A stretch of DNA of 64,000 nt, taken from Deltaproteobacteria bacterium. GTDB lineage: Bacteria > SAR324 > JACQKK01. The translations under genes were made by a program, and so were the position numbers. Below the pieces are notes generated by a model. It did not search any database and was not told where the DNA came from. It saw only the letters and a list, made by a program, of their open reading frames with translations. The stretch spans positions 1-64,000 of the forward strand of contig JAOUEW010000002.1 in NCBI GenBank assembly GCA_029858505.1, given 5' to 3'. Shown here piece by piece: positions 23,857 to 49,512 of the stretch; within the stretch, counting starts at the first letter, position 1; each line of letters opens with the position of its first letter.

Positions 23857-24067
23857 GGGGCGGCGGCAGGGAGGGTGCGGGTGACAATGCGGGTTCAGCC
23901 CACAGGGTATCACACCCCCCGGATGAGGCAACGGTTCCCCCTTAGCCTGGGTCTTAGCCCATGGTGGTACATGGAGATTGCGCCTTTACGAAAGTTGCGT
24001 TTTTCCGCCTAATGTGCTTAATATGCGCCATTTTGGGCGCTATGGTTTCCTTCTCCTGGGTAAAGCG

Positions 24068-26905
24068 ATGTTCTCTCTTCGCGGTGTTATTCTGCCTGTT
24101 TCCCTGGCCCTCCCGCTGGTCTTGTCTAGCTGCAATATCCCCAAGGCGTACAGGGGAACGGAGTTCCTGCTGCCCACCTGCGGCTACTGCCCAGACATCG
24201 CCCCCCCGGCGGCGGTGACCACCCCCGCCAACGTGCCGGTGACCCTCACCTACACGGTCACCGACACCGACAGCCCGGTGGTGACCCTGGCAGCGGTCAA
24301 GGCCCCCACCAAGGGCACGCTCTCGGCGTTTACCCTGGCCACCACCACGGGCAACATGACCAGCGGTTATACGTTTACCTTCACGGGCACCTACACCCCA
24401 AACGCCACCATGGCCGGGGCGGATTCCTTCGACCTGCAGGCCACCGACAATTCCCCCACCCCCAACGTGTCGCTGGTACCCAAGGTGAACGTAACCGTGA
24501 CCCCCTACCTCACCGGCATCACGGTGGCTCCGGCGAATCCTTTGGTGCCCAGGGGCACCACCAAGCAGTTCAGCGCGTCGGGGGCTTACAACGATGGCGT
24601 TGCCCGCCCCCTGCCCAATGCCTACACGGCTGCCCCCACCTGGAGCAGCGGCACCCCGGCCAACGCCACCATCAACAGCACGGGGTTGGCTTCGTTGCCG
24701 GCCACCGGAACCATCACGGGCACGTCCGTCATCACCGCCACCAGCGGGCTCATTTCTGGTACCACCACCCTCACCGTGGACATGCCCACCCTGGTCAGCA
24801 TTGCCGTGACTCCTGGCAACGTCACCGTGCCCAGGGGCACCAGCCAGCAATTCGCCGCCACGGGAACCTTTGTTGACGGAACCACCGGGGTCATCACAAC
24901 CCTGATGACCTGGTCCAGCGGCACCACCACCAACGCCACCATTGTCAGCACCTCTGGCTTGGCCACCGCCATCAACACCGGCAACATCACGGGTACTTCT
25001 CTCATCACCGCTACCGACCCGGCCAGCGGAAAGAAGGGAACCGCCACCCTCACCGTGGGCAACCCTAACCTAGTGAGCATCGCCGTGGGGCCGGGGCCGG
25101 GCTTCACCGTGCCCCGGGGCACCACCCAGCAGTTCACCGCCACGGGAACCTACTCCGATACCCAGGCGTTGACCTTGCCCAGCGTTTACACCGCCGCCCC
25201 CACCTGGAGCAGCCTCACCACCACCAATGCCACCGTGAACGCCACTGGCCTTGCCACGGCGGTAAACGGGGGAGCCATCGGTGGAACATCTTCTATCCGG
25301 GCAACCAGCGGTGCCATCATTGGCAGTTCTACCCTCACCGTGGGCAATCCCAACTTGGTCAGCATTGCGGTAACCCCGGCCAATGCCACCATCCTCACTC
25401 GGCAGACCCAGCAATACACCGCCACCGGAACGTTCTCAGATACCACGGTGGTGCCCATTTCCACCTACGGCTATACCGCAACCTGGACCTCCTCTAACCT
25501 CAATTCGGCTACCATTTCTGCCGCGGGCTTGGCTACGGTGGTGTATGCCGGGGTGGGCACCGGAACCATCAGCGCAACCAGTGGGGGTGTCACCGGCTCC
25601 ACGGGCCTCACCACTGTTCTTCAGCAAACCTGGGTTAGCGGGAGTAACACGACGGGTGCCCTAGGGGTATATGGCACCCAGGGCGTTGCCGCTGCCGCCA
25701 ACGTGCCGGGGGCAAGGGATAGCAGTATTTCTTGGGCAGGCACGGCGGGCGACCTATGGCTGTTTGGGGGAAATGGCTTTGCCACCGCCGCAGGAGGGCC
25801 GACCTTTCTAAATGATCTTTGGAAATTTAACCCCACCACGGGCCAATGGACCTGGGTTAGCGGCAGCAGTGGGTATAGTGCCCTGGGGGTGTACGGAACC
25901 CTAGGTGTCGCCGCCGCCACCAACGTGCCGGGGGCTAGGTATTACAGTGTTTCTTGGACAGACACGGCGGGGAACCTGTGGTTGTTCGGGGGAAATGGCT
26001 ATGGCGCAGCAGCGGCGTTGGGTAATCTGAACGACCTGTGGAAATGGAACGGTACCCAATGGACTTGGATTAGCGGAAAAAACGCGATAAGTGCCACTGG
26101 AGCATATGGCACCAAAGGCATCGCCGCCGCAGGCAACGTGCCGGGGGCACGTAGAAACAGCATTTCCTGGGCAGACACGGCGGGGAACCTGTGGCTGCTC
26201 GGGGGATTCGGTAATGACACCACCACAACGGCGGGCTACTTGAATGACCTGTGGAAATTTAACATCGCCACCAGCCAATGGACCTGGGTCAGCGGGAGTA
26301 ACACGACGGGTGCCCTGGGGGTGTATGGCACCAAAGGCGTCGCTGCCGCTACCAACGTGCCGGGGGCTAGATTTGGCAGCGCTACCTGGATAGACACGGC
26401 GGGAAACCTGTGGCTTTTCGGGGGGCAAGGTTTTAGTGCCTCTGGGCCGGCAGGCTGGCTGAACGACCTGTGGAAATGGAACGGCACTCAATGGACCTGG
26501 GTCAGCGGAGGCAGCGCGGTAAGTGCCACCGGGGTGTATGGCACCAAAGGCACCGCCGCCGCCGCCAACGTGCCTGGAAGCCGATACATTAGTGTTTCTT
26601 GGATAGACGCAGGGGGGAACCTGTGGTTGCTAGGAGGGTATGGGTTTGGAACCACTACATCGGGCTATCTGAACGACCTGTGGAAATTTAACCCCGCCAC
26701 CGGCCAGTGGACTTGGGTCAGCGGCGGCAGCGCGTTGGGTGCCCTGGGGGTGTATGGCACCCAGGGCACCCCCGCTGCCACCAACGTGCCGGGGGCACGG
26801 CAGGCCAGCATCTCCTGGAAAGACACGGCGGGGAATCTGTGGCTGTTTGGAGGAAACAATGGATTATCGAGTGTCATGAACGACCTGTGGAAGTTGAGCC
26901 CGTAA
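24068..26905 (+). CDS. Large lipoprotein with BIG2-like and Kelch-like repeats
   Basis: A 945-residue predicted surface lipoprotein. The start at 24068 gives a short signal ending in the lipobox LVLSSC (Cys22); an upstream in-frame ATG would bury it. After a cadherin/Big_9-like segment (VTDTDSPVVTLAAVKAPTKG) come four bacterial Ig-like (BIG2) units, each starting LVSIAV-P or similar and containing VPRGT-QQF-ATGT and a TWSS strand. The C-terminal ~430 residues hold six repeats with the core TWVSG, ALGVYGT, NVPGAR, then LWLFGG and LNDLWKF. These are Kelch/galactose-oxidase-like blades, so a six-bladed propeller is likely. No enzymatic residue is evident; adhesion or polysaccharide binding is plausible. 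A strong terminator follows. Confidence 0.82.
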   Translation: MFSLRGVILPVSLALPLVLSSCNIPKAYRGTEFLLPTCGYCPDIAPPAAVTTPANVPVTLTYTVTDTDSPVVTLAAVKAPTKGTLSAFTLATTTGNMTSGYTFTFTGTYTPNATMAGADSFDLQATDNSPTPNVSLVPKVNVTVTPYLTGITVAPANPLVPRGTTKQFSASGAYNDGVARPLPNAYTAAPTWSSGTPANATINSTGLASLPATGTITGTSVITATSGLISGTTTLTVDMPTLVSIAVTPGNVTVPRGTSQQFAATGTFVDGTTGVITTLMTWSSGTTTNATIVSTSGLATAINTGNITGTSLITATDPASGKKGTATLTVGNPNLVSIAVGPGPGFTVPRGTTQQFTATGTYSDTQALTLPSVYTAAPTWSSLTTTNATVNATGLATAVNGGAIGGTSSIRATSGAIIGSSTLTVGNPNLVSIAVTPANATILTRQTQQYTATGTFSDTTVVPISTYGYTATWTSSNLNSATISAAGLATVVYAGVGTGTISATSGGVTGSTGLTTVLQQTWVSGSNTTGALGVYGTQGVAAAANVPGARDSSISWAGTAGDLWLFGGNGFATAAGGPTFLNDLWKFNPTTGQWTWVSGSSGYSALGVYGTLGVAAATNVPGARYYSVSWTDTAGNLWLFGGNGYGAAAALGNLNDLWKWNGTQWTWISGKNAISATGAYGTKGIAAAGNVPGARRNSISWADTAGNLWLLGGFGNDTTTTAGYLNDLWKFNIATSQWTWVSGSNTTGALGVYGTKGVAAATNVPGARFGSATWIDTAGNLWLFGGQGFSASGPAGWLNDLWKWNGTQWTWVSGGSAVSATGVYGTKGTAAAANVPGSRYISVSWIDAGGNLWLLGGYGFGTTTSGYLNDLWKFNPATGQWTWVSGGSALGALGVYGTQGTPAATNVPGARQASISWKDTAGNLWLFGGNNGLSSVMNDLWKLSP

Positions 26906-28626: not shown

Positions 28627-30447
28627 ATGGCAGGCATCAATTTCAAGGCTGGTCCCAAGATGGTTCATCCCGAGGCACCCTCTGCGGTGGGCTCTCGGAA
28701 CTCCCTGAACCGCGACGGGAGAAATGAGTACAACGAAGGGCAGATGATGATTGATGAGGAGGTGGATAAGCTGATTAACCACGTCCAAGAAAAACTGCCC
28801 CCTGAAGTGCTGCAGGAACTGAACGTGATGGGGAACGTGAAGTCTCACCTGCACAACTACTTCAACCAGTCTTACCAAAACATGCTCAACCGTTACTTGG
28901 TAACGGCCGAGGATGAGTTGTCCAAAAAAATTCGGGACATGCTGGACAAAGAGGAAAACAAAGCCCTCAACCGCTACACGCCCAAAGAAATCCGCGAACT
29001 GGTGGAACAAGCTGGCGACCCCAAGGTGTTCAACACCGGCGAGGTGGAAAAATCCATGGTGAACATCATGGGCCACCTGCAGGGTCACTTGGCCAAGGGC
29101 TCTACCGAGTTTGAAGGCCTCACCACGCACATCTTGATGCAGCGCAACGACGTGGGCGGCCTGATTGCCGGCGAAAACGCCTACTCCATTCTGAAGGCCT
29201 CGTTTAAAGACCACTACTTCAAGCCCGACACCGTGATGGAAGTAAACGTGGCCTTGAATATTTTGGATCACGAGTTGATCAGCGCCGTGGTGCCCTACTA
29301 CGTCACCACCGAAGCTCTGGTGAAGGAAATCATCGCGGGGCAAATTCACGAGTTGATTGACCGCGAAATTGCCGACGTGAACAAGCAATTGGAAGCCGAA
29401 GGCCGCAACAAGCTTTCCGCCAACGAGCAGGTGTTTGAGAAAATCAAAGCCCTGGAAAACCACGTGGACGACGACGCGGATGACGAAGACTCCAAGCGCT
29501 ACCAATACATTTCCATGGGGTTCATGGAGCGCCTGAAAAACATGGGTGCCGAATTGGACAACATTCCCGCCGATGCCGATGGCGTGACCCAAACCATCGT
29601 GCGGTTTTTGAAAGCCGAAAACCTGCACAACCGGGGCTGGAGTTCCGCGGTGAACAACCTGACCCGCATTCTGGATGACACCCGGTTGGGCTATCAATAC
29701 GTGGAAAACCTGAAAGACACCCGTCGGCTGTCCATCCGTGAATACGAGCAGACCGACATCTCCCGGCTGCCCGACGAGCGCTACAACTTGTCTCTTCGCT
29801 ACCTGACCCGCGAACAGTTGGTGGAAGACCAAATCGCCTACTCTGCCCAAATTAGCGAGTTCCGCCGCGAAGTGATGCGGTTGTGGGACGTGGTGCAGGG
29901 CATTTACCACGAAGAAAAAGCCAAACAAAAACTGCGGGATTGGGATGACGTGGTGAACTCTACCCTCAGCCGCCGCGGTCGGGGCGGTGCCGGATGGTTT
30001 GAACCCGGCAAAGAGGGTGGCCCGCAATGGAACGAAATCACCTTCATTCAGCGCAAGCTGACCAACCTGGAAGAAATGAACCAGACCTATGCCATGCTGG
30101 TGACCGATTTCCAGGAGCGCTTTCGGATTGTCCGCCGCCGCTTGAACGAAATCTTTGACACGGCCTTCCCGGAACACCGGATGGTGGTGGAGCAGCGGTT
30201 GAACTTCCTGGAAACCCAGTTTTCCGCCTTCATGGCCGAGGTGAACCCGTACCACATTCAGCCAGGCCTGGTGCTGGATCTCCGCATGACCTCCATCAAG
30301 CGGGGAAAAACCACCGTGAAAATGATGGCCAACGTGCTGAACCACTATTTGATGTCACTCTCCAAGGATTATGTGATGGGGACGGTGGGTCAGTCTCACC
30401 GCCACGCGAACGTGGGCGATGCCATGGGTTCGTTCGGGGAAGCCTAG
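28627..30447 (+). CDS. CfpA-like cytoplasmic filament protein, paralogue 1
   Basis: A 606-residue cytoplasmic, mostly helical protein without signal or membrane segment. It closely parallels the product at 34616-36538. Shared landmarks are HPE-PSAVGSRNSL, DEEVDK, KLPPEV, MNRYL-like NRYLVTAEDEL, KVFNTGEVEKSMVNIMGHLQGHL, GENAYSILK, LDHELIS, DSKRY, NRGW...NTLTRILDDTRLGYQY, LPDERY, and a C-terminal NPYHIQPGLVLDL with TSIKRGKTT. From memory these match CfpA, the ribbon-forming cytoplasmic filament protein of spirochaetes, including the FNTGEIEKS block, the NPYHVQPG block and the overall length. The homology is recalled, not searched. It starts at 28627 after AGGAG. It heads a four-gene cluster and is followed by a 12-bp hairpin that may favour its mRNA segment. 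Confidence 0.75.
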   Translation: MAGINFKAGPKMVHPEAPSAVGSRNSLNRDGRNEYNEGQMMIDEEVDKLINHVQEKLPPEVLQELNVMGNVKSHLHNYFNQSYQNMLNRYLVTAEDELSKKIRDMLDKEENKALNRYTPKEIRELVEQAGDPKVFNTGEVEKSMVNIMGHLQGHLAKGSTEFEGLTTHILMQRNDVGGLIAGENAYSILKASFKDHYFKPDTVMEVNVALNILDHELISAVVPYYVTTEALVKEIIAGQIHELIDREIADVNKQLEAEGRNKLSANEQVFEKIKALENHVDDDADDEDSKRYQYISMGFMERLKNMGAELDNIPADADGVTQTIVRFLKAENLHNRGWSSAVNNLTRILDDTRLGYQYVENLKDTRRLSIREYEQTDISRLPDERYNLSLRYLTREQLVEDQIAYSAQISEFRREVMRLWDVVQGIYHEEKAKQKLRDWDDVVNSTLSRRGRGGAGWFEPGKEGGPQWNEITFIQRKLTNLEEMNQTYAMLVTDFQERFRIVRRRLNEIFDTAFPEHRMVVEQRLNFLETQFSAFMAEVNPYHIQPGLVLDLRMTSIKRGKTTVKMMANVLNHYLMSLSKDYVMGTVGQSHRHANVGDAMGSFGEA

Positions 30448-30481
30448 GCCGGAAATTCCCTCTTTATTCGTTCTGTCTGCG

Positions 30482-30511
30482 TTCTCCCGCCCCTTGCTTG
30501 GGGCGGGAGAA
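30482..30511 (+). terminator. Perfect 12-bp intercistronic hairpin
   Basis: TTCTCCCGCCCC (30482-30493) and GGGGCGGGAGAA (30500-30511) pair around a 6-nt loop, 35 bp after the first filament gene. No T-run follows, so it is more likely an mRNA stabiliser or attenuator. Either would leave the first gene expressed above the next one. Confidence 0.65.
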
Positions 30512-30604
30512 ATCAGCCAGGACTATCACTTCACCGGGATCGGGTTTCAATGCCGACCCCATTGTTCGTTCAACAACCATACCCAGCATCCGGAGTTTTT
30601 GGTC

Positions 30605-31831
30605 ATGACCAACGAGTACGCAGCACTTAGCACTCGCAAAGGATTTAACCGGTCTCTGAGCCACTTCCGGCTGGTGACCCAGTTGTCGGAACAGGCTGGG
30701 CAAGGCTTGAACTTGGCCGACCTTGTGGACGACCTGGAAAAAGATAAAAAAATCCAAAAGTCACAAATTGGGCCAATTCTGAACGCCTTGCTGGTGGAAA
30801 AATTTCAATACCAAACGTTGTCGTTCAACTTGGTTCAAGACATGAAAACGTTTGAGGACATTCAATCTCAAACGGAAAAATGGAACCGAGCGGAAATGGT
30901 TGCGGCCTATCACCATCCGCAGTTGGGCATTTCCCTGATCAACCCGAAGCGGAAGAACCATTGGGATGGGGTTCAAGATTTAAGCCGCCATGAATTGGTG
31001 GTGCTGTATGTGAAGGGCGTTCGGGACCAGGATAAAGCCATTGAACCTCAAGTGTTGGCCGGGCTGAAAGCCATGATGAACGGCGGAACGCTTCCGGCGG
31101 GATCTTCGTTCCACGATGCAGCCATTAAGCCCGTGGTGATGAAACCGAAGGTGGTGGAAGCCCCAGCCGAAGCACCCGCGCCCGCCCCTGCTGCGCCGGT
31201 GGCCAAGCCCGCGGCCCCGAAACCCGTGGCGGCAGCGCACACCCGGCCCGGCGCAAAGCCCGCGGTGGTGCCCCCAGCCAGGGGCACGGTGGCCACTAGC
31301 CGCAGGCCCGAAGTGAAACCTGTTGCCAAACCCGGTCGTGTTGGCACCGCGCCCGGCCTGCGCCCGGCCGTTGCCCCACCGTCTCACGCCAAAGGAGGTC
31401 CCGTGTCGAAACCACAACCCCCCACCGCTACCGCCCCCGCGGCCAAGGCGGCCGAAGGCCCAGCGGCGAAAGCCGCCGCCCCAGCAGATGGGGGCAACCG
31501 GGCACGCATGACCCCCAAATACAGCATTCAGGTGACCAACGAGTTGTTCCATAACGGAAACGTGGAAGCCTGGAAAAATATTATTGAATCCTTCAAGGTC
31601 AAGTTCACCACGTTGGAGGTGCACATTTTCCACGATGGCGAAAAGGTAAACGACATCAACTCCTTGTTTAAATGGGGGAAGGTGAAGCACGGAGACGTTC
31701 TTCTCTTTTCCATCTCGGGAGAGGAAATCCAAGGGGTGGCCAAACTGCAACGATACCTGTTTGAAGGCGCCAGTCCGCGTTTCCATAACTTTTTGAAAAA
31801 AGACGTCAACAAGGCTTTGAATCTCTTTTAA
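30605..31831 (+). CDS. Two-domain protein with Pro/Ala linker and HPr-like C-terminus
   Basis: A 408-residue protein. Residues 1-175 form a helical globular domain I do not recognise. Residues 176-300 are a long Pro/Ala/Lys-rich linker. Residues 305-390 form a compact alpha/beta domain with the order and spacing of HPr: strand YSIQVTNE, a His at 316 at the start of helix 1 (LFHNGNVEAWKNIIESF), strand TTLEVHIFHDG, helix NDINSLFKWG, strand GDVLLFSISGEE and helix GVAKLQRYL. H316 lies near the place of the HPr phospho-His, but the surrounding residues differ from GIHARPA. This similarity is my inference. The start at 30605 follows GGAG. The gene lies between a filament gene and a PPDK-like gene, 18 bp before the latter, suggesting phosphotransfer or a relic of it. 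Confidence 0.6.
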   Translation: MTNEYAALSTRKGFNRSLSHFRLVTQLSEQAGQGLNLADLVDDLEKDKKIQKSQIGPILNALLVEKFQYQTLSFNLVQDMKTFEDIQSQTEKWNRAEMVAAYHHPQLGISLINPKRKNHWDGVQDLSRHELVVLYVKGVRDQDKAIEPQVLAGLKAMMNGGTLPAGSSFHDAAIKPVVMKPKVVEAPAEAPAPAPAAPVAKPAAPKPVAAAHTRPGAKPAVVPPARGTVATSRRPEVKPVAKPGRVGTAPGLRPAVAPPSHAKGGPVSKPQPPTATAPAAKAAEGPAAKAAAPADGGNRARMTPKYSIQVTNELFHNGNVEAWKNIIESFKVKFTTLEVHIFHDGEKVNDINSLFKWGKVKHGDVLLFSISGEEIQGVAKLQRYLFEGASPRFHNFLKKDVNKALNLF

Positions 31832-31849
31832 CCGCGACGAAAGAATCCC

Positions 31850-34444
31850 ATGGCTCAGCTGATCGAATTTAACAAGGATGTTTACCTGGAAGGAACCGAT
31901 CTCCAGGAGCGTTTTGGCCTGCGAGGACGAAACGTGATGCAATTGGCCCAATTGAAGGCGCCCATTGCCCCTGGGTTTATGATTGATTCTTCCACCCTGA
32001 CGGGTGGCAAGGTAAAAAACCTGACACGGGCTGAGATCGAAAAAGCGGTCAAGAAAATTGAAAGCCTGACGGGAAAGACCTTTAACAAGGCCGACCGCCC
32101 CATGTTCTTTAAGGTGGTCATTTCTCCCTCGATCCAAATTGGCTCCTTGCGGTCGGTTCATACCGTGGGCATCAGCGATGTGACCGTGCAGGGGTTTGCC
32201 AAATACAGCGGCGAATCCTTTGCCTACGATGAATATCGCCACTACCTAGAGTCGTATGGCTCTCGGTTTATGGGGGTGTCCTCCAGCGAATTCAAGAAAA
32301 TTAAGGATGAAAACCCCAAGGCCAGCCCCAAAGAAATCTGCGCCCTTTATCGAGACAAAGTGGTGCCTGGGTTTCCGCAGGATGGTTACGACCAGTTGTT
32401 GACGGTGCTGACCAACTTGGCCGAGCAATACCTGAGTGATGAAATGAACGAGGGGATTGAGGCCGGGGTGTTGATTCAAATGATGGTGTATGGGAATTTT
32501 GGGAAGAACTCCTACAGTGGCTCTTACTTTACCCGCAATATTGTGACCGGAGAGGCCCAGTTGACCGGGTATTTCGCCCGCAATCAGTTCGATTCCCGGC
32601 CCGACACGGGGGAAGACATCAACAAAATCGGCCCGAAGCACCTGAAAGTGCTAAAGGATTTTGCCACCCAACTGGAAGAAAAGTTTCTCGATATTCGCCA
32701 GGTGAAATTCACCATTGAGGAAGACCGGCTGTGGGTGATCGAGCAAGATCCGGTAGATACCAAATCGACCCAGGCGGAAGTTCGCACCTTCTTGGATTTA
32801 CACAAGAAGGGTCTGATTACCCGTAAAAAGCTGGTGGAAGCCATTCCTCCGGCCCAGATTCAAGACCTTCTCCACCCCGTGATCGACGTGAAGTCGACGC
32901 GGAGCATGGTGAAATTGGTGGGCGGTATCGCGGGCTCTCCTGGGGCCGCCGTGGGCCGCGTGGCGTTCTCCACCGAAAAATTGATGAAAGAATATCATCG
33001 CTGCACGCTGGCGGGCATCAACTCGAACCTGATTCTGGTGCGCCCCCATACCGATGCGGAAGACGTTCAGTCCATCGAGGTGGGCCGGGCGGTGATTGCC
33101 TCGGTGGGTGGATATGCCTCTCACGCCCCGGTGGTGGCTCGCAGTTTAAGAAAGCCCTGCTTGGTGAAAGAAAACATTGAGTACAAAAAAGATCACATTT
33201 TGGTGGAAGGACACCGGATCAACGAGTTTGACGTGGTGTCTTTGGAAGTTCCCACCTACACAGACCCCAGCATGTGGATTGGCGAGGCCAAAATGGTCTA
33301 CCCAGACACGGCTCAGAATGGGTTGGAAGAATACATCGGAGAAGTGGGCGAGTTCGTGAAAGACTTCCAGGTGATGGCCATTGCCGAAAGCGATCGCGAT
33401 ATTGAAGTGGCCCTGAGTTTGGGTGCCACCGGTATTGGGCTGCTTTCCATGGACGGAATGCTGAACCATGAAGCCACCCATGATTCCTTCGTGGAAGCGC
33501 TGCTGACCAAGGAACCCGAGCAGCGGAAGAAGTCTTTGAAGAACGTGGAAGGGAAGTTGATCAAACGCATTGTGGAGATCTTCAAACGGGTGGGTGGACG
33601 GAAGATCATCTTCTTGATGCAAGACAAACCCTTGTACGAATTCCTTCCCCATTCCGAGAAAGAAATGGAGGAAGTGTATGGGAAGATCAGCGGGAAGATG
33701 GGTGTGTCTCTGTCGGAGCTGAAAGCCCGAGCAGGACAACTGCGGAACATTAACCCCATGATGGGGTTGCGGGGTAGCCGTATCGCCATCTCTTACCCTG
33801 ATCTTTACGAAATGCAGTTTGAGGCCATCCTGCGGGCCGCCATGCAGTACTCCGACGGCAAAGCCGGAAAAGTGAATTTCGACCTAATGGTGCCAGCGGT
33901 GATGACCGACGCGGAAATGCGCTTTATCCGCACCGGCCGGAATATTGAAGGCATCATTATTCGCGGATTCCTTGGGGTTGAGAGCGATTTGCTGGAAGAG
34001 TGGAAAATGACCTCCCTTCCCTTCCAATATAAAATCGGCGCCATGATTGAACTGCCGGCTGCCGCCCTGATGGCTGGGCACATGGCCAAACAATCCGAGT
34101 TCTTCTCCATCGGCACCCATACGTTGACCCAAACGACCAACGGAATGTCGCACGACGATATCAATATGTTCCTGCCGTCCTACACCCAGTACGACATTCT
34201 CCGGGATAACCCGTTCCAAATCCTTTCATCTCCGGTGAAGCATCTGATTGCCATGGCCAAAGACTTTGGAAAGGTAACCCGGCCAGACATTCAGGTGGGG
34301 CTGTGCGGTTCCCATGCCTCTGACCCGCTGAATATTAAGTTCGCCTTCGAGGCCAACCTGAACTTTGTGACCTGCAATCCCTATGGAGTGCCTATTGCCA
34401 AGTTGGCGGTGGCTCAAATTGTGGCAAAGAACCAACCCGGTTGA
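31850..34444 (+). CDS. Degenerate pyruvate phosphate dikinase-like protein
   Basis: An 864-residue protein with full PPDK length and order. The N-terminal ATP-grasp half is altered: GGKGAN becomes GLRGRN, the VRSGA-SMPG segment is gone, and the QTR-GKRT motif is replaced by EQDPVDTKST. The swivelling domain keeps the phospho-His in GGYASHAPVVAR (H425). In the PEP barrel, NPMMGLRGSR (R641) and MIE (E734) remain and the catalytic Cys is kept in GLCGSH (C819). RTEHMF has become LSMDGML, and GTNDLTQ is GTHTLTQ (H757 for Asn). It is therefore unlikely to make PEP or pyruvate in the normal way. From memory, spirochaetes also carry a ppdK-annotated gene near cfpA. A role in the filament system is inferred from context. 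Confidence 0.8.
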   Translation: MAQLIEFNKDVYLEGTDLQERFGLRGRNVMQLAQLKAPIAPGFMIDSSTLTGGKVKNLTRAEIEKAVKKIESLTGKTFNKADRPMFFKVVISPSIQIGSLRSVHTVGISDVTVQGFAKYSGESFAYDEYRHYLESYGSRFMGVSSSEFKKIKDENPKASPKEICALYRDKVVPGFPQDGYDQLLTVLTNLAEQYLSDEMNEGIEAGVLIQMMVYGNFGKNSYSGSYFTRNIVTGEAQLTGYFARNQFDSRPDTGEDINKIGPKHLKVLKDFATQLEEKFLDIRQVKFTIEEDRLWVIEQDPVDTKSTQAEVRTFLDLHKKGLITRKKLVEAIPPAQIQDLLHPVIDVKSTRSMVKLVGGIAGSPGAAVGRVAFSTEKLMKEYHRCTLAGINSNLILVRPHTDAEDVQSIEVGRAVIASVGGYASHAPVVARSLRKPCLVKENIEYKKDHILVEGHRINEFDVVSLEVPTYTDPSMWIGEAKMVYPDTAQNGLEEYIGEVGEFVKDFQVMAIAESDRDIEVALSLGATGIGLLSMDGMLNHEATHDSFVEALLTKEPEQRKKSLKNVEGKLIKRIVEIFKRVGGRKIIFLMQDKPLYEFLPHSEKEMEEVYGKISGKMGVSLSELKARAGQLRNINPMMGLRGSRIAISYPDLYEMQFEAILRAAMQYSDGKAGKVNFDLMVPAVMTDAEMRFIRTGRNIEGIIIRGFLGVESDLLEEWKMTSLPFQYKIGAMIELPAAALMAGHMAKQSEFFSIGTHTLTQTTNGMSHDDINMFLPSYTQYDILRDNPFQILSSPVKHLIAMAKDFGKVTRPDIQVGLCGSHASDPLNIKFAFEANLNFVTCNPYGVPIAKLAVAQIVAKNQPG

Positions 34445-34457
34445 TCCCGGGGGGAGG

Positions 34458-34591
34458 CAGAACCCCGGATACCTTGACGGGGTTCTGAAAAACAGATATG
34501 CAAGGAGATACCATTTGCCGTAGAAACACCCGAAAAGATACAAAACAACGACATATTTCAGCGAAATCATGGCTCCTCATAGAGGGAGCCA
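34458..34591 (+). other. Two hairpins before the second filament gene
   Basis: CAGAACCCCG (34458-34467) pairs with CGGGGTTCTG (34478-34487), starting 14 bp after the PPDK-like stop. TGGCTCC (34570-34576) pairs with GGAGCCA (34585-34591), just before the AAAGGAGA ribosome site of the next gene. Neither has a T-run. They could protect mRNA ends or adjust translation of the second filament gene. Confidence 0.5.
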
Positions 34592-34615
34592 GTGTTAAAC
34601 CCAAAGGAGATTCCC

Positions 34616-36538
34616 ATGTCTGAGTTCATGGTCAAACACGGCCCGAATGTGATCCATCCAGAAACCCCCAGTGCGGTGGGTTCCCGTAACTCCTTGTTTC
34701 GCGATAGCCGGGACGAATACTCTGAGTCGAGGCTGGTGGTCGACGAGGAAGTCGACAAAATTTTGAACCACATTCACGCCAAACTGCCGCCGGAAGTCGC
34801 CTCTCGGTTGGAAGTGATGGGTTCGGTGAAGTCGAAGCTGCATACGTACTACAACCAGTCCATGCAGAACATGTCCAACCGGTACCTCACCACGTTGGAA
34901 GATGAACTGGGTAAAAAGGTTCGCAACATGATTGACACCGAAGAAATGCGGGGTTTGAATCGCTATGCCCCTCGGTCGGTGTCTTACCTGTTGGACCGCA
35001 TTGCTGGTGGCGACAAGTTCAACACCGGTGAAATTGAAAAATCCATCGTGAACATGTATGGCCACTTGCACGGCCACGTTCAACGGGAAATGAACGACCT
35101 GGAAACCCGCACCAACTCGTTGTTGCGCCGGAAAATTGACGTGGGTGCCTTTGTGCGGGGCGAAAACGCTTACGCCATCGTGAAGTGCTCCTTCCGCGAT
35201 GACCCGCTCAAACCTGAAAACGTAACCCAGGTGAAATTGGCTTTGGGGATTTTGGATTCCGAATTGATCAGCCCCATTTACCCCTGGGCAACCCCTACCC
35301 TGAACATCGTGAAAGACATCGTGTCCAAGCAGATTCAAGATGCTTTGGACAGCGAGTTGGACCAAATCAACGCCAGCTTGGTGGATGAGGGCAAGTCGGA
35401 ATTGACCGCGGAAGAGAAGATTTTCGAGCGGGTCAAAGCCCTGGACAACCACGTGTCGGATGACCTGATGGAAGGCTCCAAACGCTACAGCACCGTGTCC
35501 AAGAAAATCTTTGACGCCGTGGAAGGGCTGGAAGCCACCATTGACTGGAATGACTATGACCCCATGCGCGTGCGGGAAAACACCTTCAAGCTGATTGAAT
35601 CGGAAAACATCCGAAACCGCGGTTACAACACGGCGGTCAACACCTTGACCCACGTGTTGGACTGGAGCCGGATGGGCTATCAGCACATTGAAAACTACAA
35701 GAACTCTCGGGATTGCATCATTCGCGAATACCACGAGACCAATGAGGACTTGCTGCCCGATGAGCGGTATGCTCTGCGCTTGCGGCACCTGACCTACCAC
35801 CAAATTTTGGTGTGGCGCGAAGCCTATCAAGCGCAATTGAGCGAGTTCATCCGCACCGTGATGGAACTGTGGAGCGTGGTGGAGAAAATTTACGAGGAAG
35901 ACCGCAACAAGAACCGGAAAGAAGACTGGGAGTCCTTGTACAACCGCTTGGTGACTTCTGGTGAAGAAGGTGGCTCTTGGATTATGCGCCCACGGTTTGG
36001 CGGCGGTGATGAAGAGGAAGAATCCTCGACCTCTTCGGAAGAAGCTCCGAAGTGGAACGAAATTAACTTCGTGCAGCCCCAGGAAAACGGCCTGACCGCG
36101 GCCAACCCCAAGCTGCAAAATCAATTTTCCGATATCCGCGGGCGGTTTCCCGTGATGCGGGAGCGCCTGGCCAAGGTGTTCGGCGATCTGACCACCGATG
36201 TGCGTGACATTGTGGAAGCTCGGATCACTTTCTTGGAGAACCAGTTCAACCTGTTTGGCATGCAAATCAATCCGTACCATGTGAACCCCGGTGTTCTGCT
36301 GGAGCTTGACATTGTGAGCGTCAAGCGCAAAAACACCACCATGATGGCCATGGCCAACGTGCTGAACGAATTCTTGTCCAGCGTGTCCAAAGGGTTCCAA
36401 GACGCGGCCTTTGCCTCCTTCTCTCGGCGCCGCTCTACTCAACGGGCTGACTTGGCTGAAGGGTTTGGTTCCGCCACCCAGTTGGGAAGCGATGACCAAG
36501 CGCCTGTGGTTGCTCCTCACGAAGAAACGATGGAGTAA
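34616..36538 (+). CDS. CfpA-like cytoplasmic filament protein, paralogue 2
   Basis: A 640-residue, mainly helical cytoplasmic protein paralogous to the product at 28627-30447. It looks closer to recalled spirochaete CfpA: KFNTGEIEKSIVNMYGHLHG, VGAFVRGENAYAIVKCSF, LDSELISPI, GSKRYSTVSKK, NRGYNTAVNTLTHVLDWSR, LPDERYALRL, NPYHVNPGVLLEL, SVKRKNTTMMAMANVLNEF and a tail with FASFSRRRSTQR. A linker at about 455-480 is rich in Glu and Ser. The start at 34616 follows AAAGGAGA seven bases upstream. It is the last gene of the cluster and is closed by a perfect terminator. Two paralogues may co-assemble or form distinct ribbons. Confidence 0.78.
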   Translation: MSEFMVKHGPNVIHPETPSAVGSRNSLFRDSRDEYSESRLVVDEEVDKILNHIHAKLPPEVASRLEVMGSVKSKLHTYYNQSMQNMSNRYLTTLEDELGKKVRNMIDTEEMRGLNRYAPRSVSYLLDRIAGGDKFNTGEIEKSIVNMYGHLHGHVQREMNDLETRTNSLLRRKIDVGAFVRGENAYAIVKCSFRDDPLKPENVTQVKLALGILDSELISPIYPWATPTLNIVKDIVSKQIQDALDSELDQINASLVDEGKSELTAEEKIFERVKALDNHVSDDLMEGSKRYSTVSKKIFDAVEGLEATIDWNDYDPMRVRENTFKLIESENIRNRGYNTAVNTLTHVLDWSRMGYQHIENYKNSRDCIIREYHETNEDLLPDERYALRLRHLTYHQILVWREAYQAQLSEFIRTVMELWSVVEKIYEEDRNKNRKEDWESLYNRLVTSGEEGGSWIMRPRFGGGDEEEESSTSSEEAPKWNEINFVQPQENGLTAANPKLQNQFSDIRGRFPVMRERLAKVFGDLTTDVRDIVEARITFLENQFNLFGMQINPYHVNPGVLLELDIVSVKRKNTTMMAMANVLNEFLSSVSKGFQDAAFASFSRRRSTQRADLAEGFGSATQLGSDDQAPVVAPHEETME

Positions 36539-36613
36539 TCCCTGAGTCCACCGAACCCGGATTAGAACATCTGGGTTCATGGAAACAGATCCAGGAAATA
36601 CATACCGTATTCA

Positions 36614-36642
36614 GGGGCCGGTTATACCGGCCCCTTTTTTTT
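36614..36642 (+). terminator. Rho-independent terminator of the filament cluster
   Basis: GGGGCCGG (36614-36621) and CCGGCCCC (36627-36634) form a perfect 8-bp stem with a 5-nt loop, followed by eight T. Confidence 0.95.
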
Positions 36643-47006: not shown

Positions 47007-47291
47007 ATGACCAAAAACCAAATCCTCGCGGAAGTTGCCAAACTTTCCAACCAGAGCAATGCCATGGCTGGTCGGGTGCTCGACGAAGTGCTGGAGGAAA
47101 TTGCCGGGTTGCTGCAACGGGGCGAGTCCATCACTTTTTCTGGATTCGGTTCCTTCGCGGTTCATCACCGGCGCGGCCGCAAGGGCCGCAACCCCCAGAC
47201 CGGTTCAGAAATTCACATTCAACCCCACCGGGTGCTGCGTTTCCGCCCCGGCAAAAAACTGCTTCATACCATCAATCACGGCCACCGGTAA
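47007..47291 (+). CDS. HU/IHF family DNA-binding protein
   Basis: A 94-residue nucleoid protein. It begins MTKNQILAEVAKLSN, has the dimer core LQRGESITFSGFGSFAVHHR and the DNA-binding arm GRNPQTGSEIHIQPHRVLRFRPGK with the intercalating Pro region. The family bends DNA as a dimer. I cannot choose between HU and an IHF subunit. AAGGAGG precedes the ATG. Its 3' end overlaps the convergent kinase-fusion gene by 20 bp. Confidence 0.93.
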   Translation: MTKNQILAEVAKLSNQSNAMAGRVLDEVLEEIAGLLQRGESITFSGFGSFAVHHRRGRKGRNPQTGSEIHIQPHRVLRFRPGKKLLHTINHGHR

Positions 47292-49074
47292 TTCGTTTGC
47301 TTTCACCCCAGGGTTTGTCAGGGTTGAACTTTGGAATGCCTGGTGAAGATTCCGGGTGAATCCTCTGGGGCACAAACAACGGAGCCAACAGCCCCAGCCC
47401 AGGGTGGTCTGTCACTTGGCGGGCCAAGACAGCGGGGGGTTGAGCCATGTCTAGCCGCATCCTCCGTTTGGGGGGAATTTCCTCCAGGGGTTCAAACTGA
47501 GCCTTTTGGGCCGGATAGAGTTCTCGGCGGCCATCCGAAATGCTGTTGGCGGCCCGCTCTCGTTGCCCCAATCGTTCCAGCACGTCTTTCTCTTCCAATC
47601 GGCATTCCACAAACAACCATTCGGCCCCCAGGTTTTGGGCCATGACCCGCGCCTGTTGGCGGTGTTTCCTCCGTGAAAATGAAGCGTCCACAACCACCGG
47701 GCGGCCCAGGGCCAGCAGGGCTTGGGCCCGGGCCAACATTTCTCGATAGGTTTTGGCGGTCCAGGCCGGGGTATAGATGCCCTTCCCCCAGGCGGTTGGG
47801 GAAGGGGTGTTGGCGTGGTGGGGCTGCCTGGTGGGAATCCCGGCCAGCTCTTTGCGGATGCGGTCGGAGTTGAGGTGAACCATGCCGGTCTGGCGGGCCA
47901 ATTCCTCCGCCAGGGTGGATTTTCCCGTGCCCATGGCCCCGCACAAGATGAGCAACTGGGGGGGCTTCATTTGTTGGGCGTAGCCCCAAGCTTCTTGGAA
48001 AAACGTCCTCCCCTCTTTGGTTAGGGTTTCCCGCTCAAGGGGAGATAGATTTGGGTCGGCTAGGCGGAACCCGGCCACCTTTCCCCGCACATAGGCTCGG
48101 TAGCAAGCGTAAAAAGGAATCAACAGGGCGGCCTGGGGGTCCCGGGCGGCTTCCAAGTAGGTGTCCATCATTCGGCGGGCCAGGTCGGGCCGCCCCAAAT
48201 GGGCCAGATCCATCAGCAGAAAGGCCATGTCGTTGGCGCTGTCGTTGTAACGAAAACGGTCGGTGAACTCCACGCAGTCAATGACCCGGGCCTCCGGTTC
48301 ACCCGGCGGGGCGGGCAGACGGAGGTGGATGTGTTCGGCCCGCAGGTCCCCATGGCCATGGCAGATGCGTCCCTGGGTTAGGCGGCCTTCCAGCAACAAC
48401 CGGTGGTCCGTCAAAAATCCGTCAACCTGTTCCTGAATCTGGCCATCCTGGGGGGGAGAAAACAAAATCCCCGCCTGGGGAGCCGCCTGGGCAAAGTTCT
48501 CCTGCCAGTTTTGGCGCAGGGTGGCGATTCCCCCCAGGTGCGGGTGAGCCGCCCTGGCCCGGCGGAAAAACAGGGCCAGGCGGCGGGCCAGCCTGTCGAG
48601 GGCGGGGGGAAGAAGGTTGTGGGGATCTTGGTGGTTGGGATGTTGGATGCTTTGGGTCAACCGTTGGTCCAGCATCTCTGGGCCGGGCAACCGACGCATC
48701 ACCACGGCATAATCCACCACCCGGCCTGGACCCCCCACCCGCCATTCCCCTTGGTGAAATCGCAGCGCCACCACCCCCAGATACACGCCGGGGGCCAGGC
48801 GCCGGTTTAGCCGCACTTCTCTCTGGCAGTCCTGGCGGCGCAGGGTCAGGGTGGTGAAATCAGCAAACCCCAGGTTCACCGGGCGCTTGAACTTGAAGGC
48901 ATAGGCGGGGGTGAGAATCACCATGGAGATATGGGTTTGAACGTGCTCCATGGCATCGGGGCTGGGGGCAGGCTGCTCCGGATATTCCGTGCGGGCGGCC
49001 AGGGCGGCTTTCACCCGTTGCAGGTGGCTGGGGTTCAGCCAATCAGGGGCCGAGGGTTTAGCGGTGGGGCGCAT
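47272..49074 (-). CDS. APH-like phosphotransferase fused to P-loop kinase
   Basis: A 600-residue bifunctional protein of the aminoglycoside-phosphotransferase/ATP-binding (COG2187-COG0645) type. The N-terminal domain (about 1-370) shows the kinase-like HGDLRAEH (239-246) and IDCVEF for metal binding. The C-terminal domain (about 372-600) has the Walker A GAMGTGKST (379-387), MVHLNSDRIRKEL and VVVDASFSRR, like zeta-toxin/gluconate kinase-type P-loop enzymes. The natural substrate is unknown; clinical aminoglycoside resistance should not be assumed. The start at 49074 is tentative, with an ATG at 49125 as alternative, and neither has a ribosome site. Confidence 0.85.
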   Translation of the reverse strand: MRPTAKPSAPDWLNPSHLQRVKAALAARTEYPEQPAPSPDAMEHVQTHISMVILTPAYAFKFKRPVNLGFADFTTLTLRRQDCQREVRLNRRLAPGVYLGVVALRFHQGEWRVGGPGRVVDYAVVMRRLPGPEMLDQRLTQSIQHPNHQDPHNLLPPALDRLARRLALFFRRARAAHPHLGGIATLRQNWQENFAQAAPQAGILFSPPQDGQIQEQVDGFLTDHRLLLEGRLTQGRICHGHGDLRAEHIHLRLPAPPGEPEARVIDCVEFTDRFRYNDSANDMAFLLMDLAHLGRPDLARRMMDTYLEAARDPQAALLIPFYACYRAYVRGKVAGFRLADPNLSPLERETLTKEGRTFFQEAWGYAQQMKPPQLLILCGAMGTGKSTLAEELARQTGMVHLNSDRIRKELAGIPTRQPHHANTPSPTAWGKGIYTPAWTAKTYREMLARAQALLALGRPVVVDASFSRRKHRQQARVMAQNLGAEWLFVECRLEEKDVLERLGQRERAANSISDGRRELYPAQKAQFEPLEEIPPKRRMRLDMAQPPAVLARQVTDHPGLGLLAPLFVPQRIHPESSPGIPKFNPDKPWGESKRITGGRD

Positions 49075-49512
49075 GGCGGGCCTGCAAAGTGGGTGGCGAG
49101 GGCCGATGGAATATCTTTTCTCCATGTTTTCAGCTATATTGTATCTCAAATTCGGGCAGACGGCATGAGAAAACATGGGGGAAACAATGGGGCGGCTGCG
49201 CCCGCCCGTTCATCCCAACGGCACCCTCCCTGGCACCTGCGGTGCCCGTCCCTCCTCTTCGTGGAAGGACAATACGGCTTAGGCCGAAAGGTGGGAGGTA
49301 GAATCCGTGCGGATGGTGAAGACGAAAGAAAGCAAGCGCTTCACCTGAAAGGCGGCGGGGAGGGGTGTTGTTGGGCAGGGGTGTTTCAGAAAGGGCCCAT
49401 GTGGACGTTAGAATTAAATGGGTTAATCATCATCTTCACGCATGATCTGGGATAGCCCCAACATGAGTGATGCAGAGGTTCCATTTCATGTAGTAAATTG
49501 GGGAGCCAAACG
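49075..49512. repeat. Intergenic region with dispersed repeat, copy D
   Basis: Between the divergent kinase-fusion and TerB-like genes lies a copy of the hairpin unit (about 49220-49307): CACC-like start, stem GGCACC-tgc-GGTGCC, CGTCCCTCC, GGACAATACGGCTTAGGCCGAA and GTGGGAGGTAGAATCCG. It is followed by a diverged GAAAGCAAGCGC module and a G-rich tail. The unit aligns base for base with 4069-4159 and 59783-59870 except at compensating stem positions. The remaining ~120 bp holds no gene. Confidence 0.75.

Follow-up and report, generated by a model that had tools for sequence, protein, structure and literature searches.

The cytoplasmic filament protein CfpA has been stated to be exclusive to spirochaetes (PMC2776988). 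This statement raises the question of what a run of four genes, in which two cfpA-like genes enclose a gene for an HPr-like protein and a gene for a protein similar to pyruvate, phosphate dikinase (PPDK), is doing in a bacterium classified within SAR324. The run lies on the forward strand of a 64,000-nucleotide stretch of contig JAOUEW010000002.1 (hereafter "the window", meaning the whole stretch that was analysed). A sequence-only reading of the window had offered two answers: either CfpA extends beyond the spirochaetes or the host is an unusual, lipopolysaccharide-bearing relative of them.

Regarding the identity of the two outer genes, NF040882, the NCBIfam equivalog model for CfpA (cut-off: 500 bits), is matched with 654 bits by the 606-aa product of cfpA1 (28627-30447, + strand) and with 733 bits by the 640-aa product of cfpA2 (34616-36538, + strand), over positions 4-583 and 3-604, respectively, of the 605 positions of the model, and it found no match in 14 control genomes. 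Judged by these profile matches, both paralogues are full-length CfpA: the hidden Markov model search that had been proposed for them bears out the claimed likeness, and their coordinates and lengths had been given correctly. An alignment of 621 columns gives 44% identity between the two proteins (BLASTP E 0.0). The claim of a duplicated filament gene is right for the two copies in the window but not for the copy total, as the same genome carries a third cfpA outside the window (G000:C4:948729-950549). No credible match for CfpA was obtained in a profile search against the PDB or with Foldseek, and no CfpA relatives were found in viral contigs.

As for the host, it is assigned to SAR324 (Candidatus Lambdaproteobacteria), a separate phylum, because of both the tool taxonomy and an rpoB tree, and on these phylogenetic grounds it is not a spirochaete. 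In the rpoB tree (E. coli as outgroup), the SAR324 sequences group together as a single clade (support 0.999), separated from that of Spirochaetota (0.964). Moreover, every SAR324 genome tested has a match to a stretch of the rpoB model at about positions 893-984, which none of the tested Spirochaetota shows. A marker phylogeny, such as had been suggested as a check, thus sets the genome outside Spirochaetota; of the two answers offered, the presence of CfpA beyond spirochaetes stands, and the unusual relative is discarded, since rpoB puts the host in SAR324.

The SAR324 set comprises 52 genomes of the following families: (i) f1, with 10 genomes, to which the window belongs; (ii) f2, with 31; (iii) f3, with 1; and (iv) f4, with 10. 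The gene cfpA is present in 20 of the 52 (10/10 in f1, 10/10 in f4, 0/31 in f2 and 0/1 in f3), mostly in three copies per genome, and the restriction of CfpA to spirochaetes (PMC2776988), which is a statement of the literature and not a molecular criterion, does not hold. Among Spirochaetota, cfpA is found in 99 of 247 genomes, and, split matches and very weak ones aside, each of them has one copy. One spirochaete CfpA frame (G265:C1:2249885-2251645) extends over 2159 codons with one internal TAA, the HPr-like gene being located about 158 kb away. The search for CfpA relatives across genome contigs covers the best 80 of 288, and CfpA may also occur in other phyla. No papers joining SAR324 with cytoplasmic filaments were found in the openly searchable literature, subscription titles being outside the search.

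Since the genome of the window was assembled from a metagenome (2.79 Mb, 97% complete) and has an estimated contamination of 4%, the cfpA genes could in principle be foreign sequences. Nevertheless, the contig of the window measures 646 kb, and the genes recur in all 10 genomes of f1 and all 10 of f4, obtained in independent studies, with family-specific synteny and a clade of their own. Contamination was rejected because the genes are found in 20 genomes of two families with their own synteny and clade, and its probability is negligible.

The history of the gene within the phylum can be approached through the CfpA tree, which is unrooted. In this tree, the SAR324 proteins form one clade (support 1.0) consisting of three groups (0.991, 0.959 and 0.896), and members of both f1 and f4 are found in each of them; therefore, the triplication is older than the split between f1 and f4. 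In the rpoB tree, f1 pairs with f2 (0.911) and f4 with f3 (0.989), so that the ancestor of SAR324 probably already carried cfpA, and f2 and f3 would have lost it. Alternatively, the module might have reached SAR324 by horizontal transfer from a spirochaete and not by descent from a shared ancestor: two SAR324 families lack it, CfpA is otherwise known only from Spirochaetota, and the unrooted tree joins SAR324 beside a few spirochaete lineages. However, the SAR324 proteins constitute one long-stemmed clade, which is compatible with a sister position if the tree is rooted there, and f1 and f4 are not sisters in the rpoB tree and yet have all three paralogues in common, so that any transfer would be older than the diversification of SAR324. 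Transfer is, in short, nearly an even proposition, lying slightly on the improbable side.

The arrangement of the genes is informative as well. According to the CfpA tree, cfpA1 belongs to group B and cfpA2 to group A. In f1 as well as in f4, it is the group B copy to which the genes for the HPr-like and PPDK-like proteins are linked. In f4, the cfpA1-group copy and these two genes sit at another place than the cfpA2-group copy, which adjoins the genes for YceG and component M of the type II secretion system (T2SS), as does cfpA2 in the window. Given that the cfpA2-type copy adjoins T2SS genes in f4 too, the four-gene run of f1 probably arose by the joining of two separate loci and not by tandem duplication.

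The operon cfpA - HPr-like - PPDK-like is conserved in SAR324 and also in spirochaetes, where most of the loci long enough to show it present the genes in this order. Conserved synteny with Treponema had been claimed in the sequence-only reading, and the same gene order in spirochaete loci supports it; likewise, the position it gave for cfpA (TP0748), two genes from ppdK (TP0746) in T. pallidum, agrees with the published gene arrangement (PMC3373638). Among the 247 Spirochaetota, 94 have both cfpA and the HPr-like gene, 5 have cfpA alone, 2 have the HPr-like gene alone, and 146 have neither. The two genes are adjacent on one strand in 81 of the 94 pairs, and most of the remaining pairs are on different contigs. 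The partners are not indispensable, as some cfpA genes of SAR324 occur without them: in four f4 genomes (G042, G043, G048 and G049), cfpA copies are present and the HPr-like gene was not detected.

The first of these partners (30605-31831, + strand; 408 aa), located by its start codon, is a two-domain protein with a conserved N-terminal domain, a long low-confidence linker and, in the AlphaFold2 model, a C-terminal domain with an HPr fold. The C-terminal domain has predicted local distance difference test (pLDDT) values mostly above 90 and the beta-alpha-beta-beta-alpha-beta-alpha order of HPr. Foldseek ranks 1-28 are all HPr or Crh, with probabilities up to 0.99 and E-values of 0.02 and above, these E-values being due to the use of a 410-aa two-domain model as query. 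The sole invariant His in 45 aligned sequences (45/45), whose codon in the window is 31550-31552 (+ strand) within the FHNGN motif, is found where the first helix begins, which is the place of His15 in HPr. The middle protein is thus predicted to have an HPr fold. The sequence profiles do not follow: PF00381 (HPr) gave no Pfam match in the window protein with E up to 1, and a profile of the HPr-like proteins searched against the PDB returned no HPr but weak NusA matches of the N-terminal half (E 1.6e-4). Compared with HPr, the domain is alike in predicted fold and in its His at the His15 position; it differs in the lack of a Pfam match, in the replacement of HxRP by FHNGN (with no Arg17-Pro18) and in its fusion to another domain. 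The label "HPr-like" given by the sequence-only reading can be kept for the fold (AlphaFold2, Foldseek), not for the sequence profile (Pfam, hhalign). Canonical HPr is also present in these genomes. Besides, most f1 genomes have a second, short protein with an HPr-like domain; in that of the genome of the window (L213:4786-5334, + strand), RHGN replaces FHNGN.

The second partner (31850-34444, + strand; 864 aa) has the same domain order, length and mobile-domain His as PPDK, and on the evidence of its residues it is not a PPDK. In the numbering of the C. symbiosum enzyme, the ATP site of PPDK includes K22, R92, E323, Q335 and R337, and the phosphoenolpyruvate (PEP) site includes R561, R617, R665, E745, N768, D769 and C831. 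All cfpA-linked copies score below the cut-off of TIGR01828, the PPDK equivalog model (516 bits for the window protein; cut-off, 843 bits). All or nearly all of the 62 cfpA-linked copies have other residues in place of K22, R92, E323 and Q335 (mostly R, V, R/K and E/D, respectively), and R337 is variable; the window protein has R, V, K, E and D at these five positions. As a positive control, the ATP-site set is kept in 13 stand-alone spirochaete PPDKs and in 3 from f4 genomes. As a separate observation, the stand-alone PPDKs of f1 (L159, L160 and L161) have E323, Q335 or R337 changed and keep K22, R92 and the PEP site.

The remaining catalytic positions behave differently. His455 (62/62; codon 33122-33124, + strand, in the window), R665 and E745 are invariant in the cfpA-linked copies. 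R561, R617, N768, D769 and C831 are kept in f4 and in all the spirochaete copies covering them, whereas in the f1 copies R561, R617, N768 and D769 are largely lost; the window protein has S, L, R, E, H, T and C at the seven PEP-site positions, four of the seven being lost. Hence, of the name "PPDK-like", homology and the His stand, and PPDK identity falls with the loss of the ATP site and, in f1, of most of the PEP site too. The pattern of spirochaetes and f4 is that of an Enzyme I-like protein, with a PEP site and a phospho-His and no use of ATP. These copies resemble Enzyme I (TIGR01417) in their PEP-binding and phospho-His domains, and differ from it in descending from PPDK. The N-terminal, HPr-binding domain of Enzyme I gave no Pfam match in the window protein with E up to 1, and the genomes tested also carry separate Enzyme I-like frames.

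Could the second partner still be an ordinary PPDK that is a chance neighbour of cfpA? Its T. pallidum counterpart, TP0746, is annotated as PPDK, and published work assigns PPDK activity to it, with the expectation that it makes ATP from PEP, AMP and pyrophosphate (PMC10013896). Against this explanation, which is very improbable, (i) every cfpA-linked copy lies below the equivalog cut-off; (ii) the ATP-site residues are absent, yet they are kept by the stand-alone PPDKs of the same spirochaete genomes; and (iii) the cfpA-linked proteins split from the stand-alone PPDKs as a clade of their own with a support of 0.982, a value obtained after removal of a long branch (when the tree rooted on Enzyme I includes it, the support is only 0.322). 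In the genome taken as T. pallidum (G113; 1.1 Mb in one contig), cfpA (814710-816533) and the only PPDK-like gene (810752-813313) have positions that agree with published TP0748 and TP0746; no second PPDK was found in this genome. The PPDK-like gene scores 608 bits, below the cut-off of 843, and has R, V, R, E and K at the ATP site. This residue pattern argues against PPDK activity. TP0746 appears to be the cfpA-linked PPDK-like protein, and its annotation as PPDK may be wrong.

Regarding function, a T. denticola cfpA mutant shows no filaments, chromosome condensation and cell filamentation (PMC3398590), and the filaments of T. pallidum run beneath the membrane, parallel to the flagella (PMC13398306). 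The SAR324 proteins share with CfpA of Treponema (TP0748 and orthologues) full-length homology above the cut-off and the same downstream HPr-like and PPDK-like genes; they differ in belonging to another phylum, in having three paralogues versus one and in the undetected FlaA. FlaA, the periplasmic flagellar sheath protein, was positive in 5/5 spirochaetes tested and was not detected in the SAR324 genomes tested. Flagellin is present in 52/52 SAR324 genomes and does not separate those with cfpA from those lacking it. With flagellins and no detected FlaA, the putative CfpA filament of SAR324 would therefore be independent of a spirochaete-type flagellar sheath.

The best explanation overall, and a reasonably likely one, is a cytoplasmic filament of multiple CfpA proteins with a dedicated, co-inherited partner pair. 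In SAR324, the CfpA proteins would assemble into a polymer in the cytoplasm that resembles the treponemal ribbon, with three CfpA subunit types, not one, making it up or setting its pattern; that a filament forms there is highly probable. Physical binding of the HPr-like and PPDK-like pair to CfpA is somewhat probable. The PPDK-derived protein would not interconvert pyruvate and PEP, the use of ATP having apparently been lost everywhere. In spirochaetes and f4, phosphate could pass from PEP to the His of the PPDK-derived protein and then to the HPr-like protein, as from Enzyme I to HPr, and filament assembly, attachment or link to division would thus follow the PEP level. In f1, the pair would more likely be a binding or anchoring scaffold, because the PEP site is also damaged there. 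That any phosphotransfer takes place in spirochaetes is doubtful, and the complete scheme, namely, a PPDK-derived PEP phosphorelay of the Enzyme I/HPr type which is dedicated to the cytoskeleton, makes the state of the filament depend on glycolytic status in both spirochaetes and SAR324, and has decayed in f1 to the scaffold of a three-subunit filament, is unlikely as a whole.

Alternatively, both partners may be pseudoenzymes, i.e. purely structural bridges or membrane anchors with no phosphotransfer anywhere. A treponemal filament tomography study by Izard from 2004, going by its title, reportedly deals with bridging and anchoring components. Furthermore, the protein is still conserved after loss of the ATP site everywhere and of the PEP site in f1, and Arg17 of HPr is not conserved. 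On the other hand, essentially every spirochaete and f4 copy retains His455 as well as R561, R617, R665, E745, N768, D769 and C831, residues for which a pure scaffold would have no use. A purely structural role is quite conceivable, although its probability stays below one half.

Several points weigh against the filament with its partner pair. The lack of Arg17 in the FHNGN motif also counts here, and the hhalign comparison of the HPr-like domain with local HPr sequences is weak (P 0.038, probability 1.4%). The predicted CfpA model has only moderate confidence (pLDDT 70.6) and lacks a PDB fold match. The co-occurrence of cfpA and the HPr-like gene (Fisher's exact P 3e-59 in the 247 Spirochaetota) ignores phylogeny, and adjacency and co-occurrence are no proof of binding. 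One f4 genome (G048, 98% complete) keeps cfpA with neither an HPr-like gene nor a PPDK-like gene beside its cfpA, and no filament has been seen in SAR324.

The surroundings of the run had also been described in part. The enclosed HPr-like and PPDK-like genes are both real and on the same strand as cfpA1 and cfpA2, and the single strong terminator is found behind the run (36613-36635, + strand; 10-pair stem with 8 G-C pairs and a T7 tail); it is the strongest of the terminator-like matches, which overall are not more frequent than in shuffled sequences. The neighbours include the T2SS L/M/F/K genes and a YejM-type (DUF3413-sulfatase) gene, as the sequence-only reading had it, along with YceG and RmuC genes. 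Elsewhere in the window, a surface protein is the likely product of a 975-aa open reading frame (23978-26905, + strand) whose repeats (NDLWK..TGQWTWVSGS) are BIG2-like and kelch-like, and a 634-aa protein (47272-49176, - strand) contains a kinase domain of the P-loop type (AAA_33) and matches zeta toxin weakly.

In any case, the presence of a hallmark cytoskeletal gene set of spirochaetes in another phylum stands, and the partner pair is the more interesting part of it. The co-inherited partners, a PPDK-like protein apparently without ATP use and a protein with a predicted HPr fold, suggest that the CfpA filament is tied to phosphoenolpyruvate chemistry. TP0746 is handled in the literature as the glycolytic PPDK of T. 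pallidum; if, as its sequence suggests, it lacks the residues for this reaction, models in which it supplies ATP would have to be revised. A triplicated CfpA in a phylum without detectable FlaA would separate the filament from the periplasmic flagellum of spirochaetes and provide a comparison group for its function, and the conserved pair provides named candidates for filament components and for a possible metabolic link.

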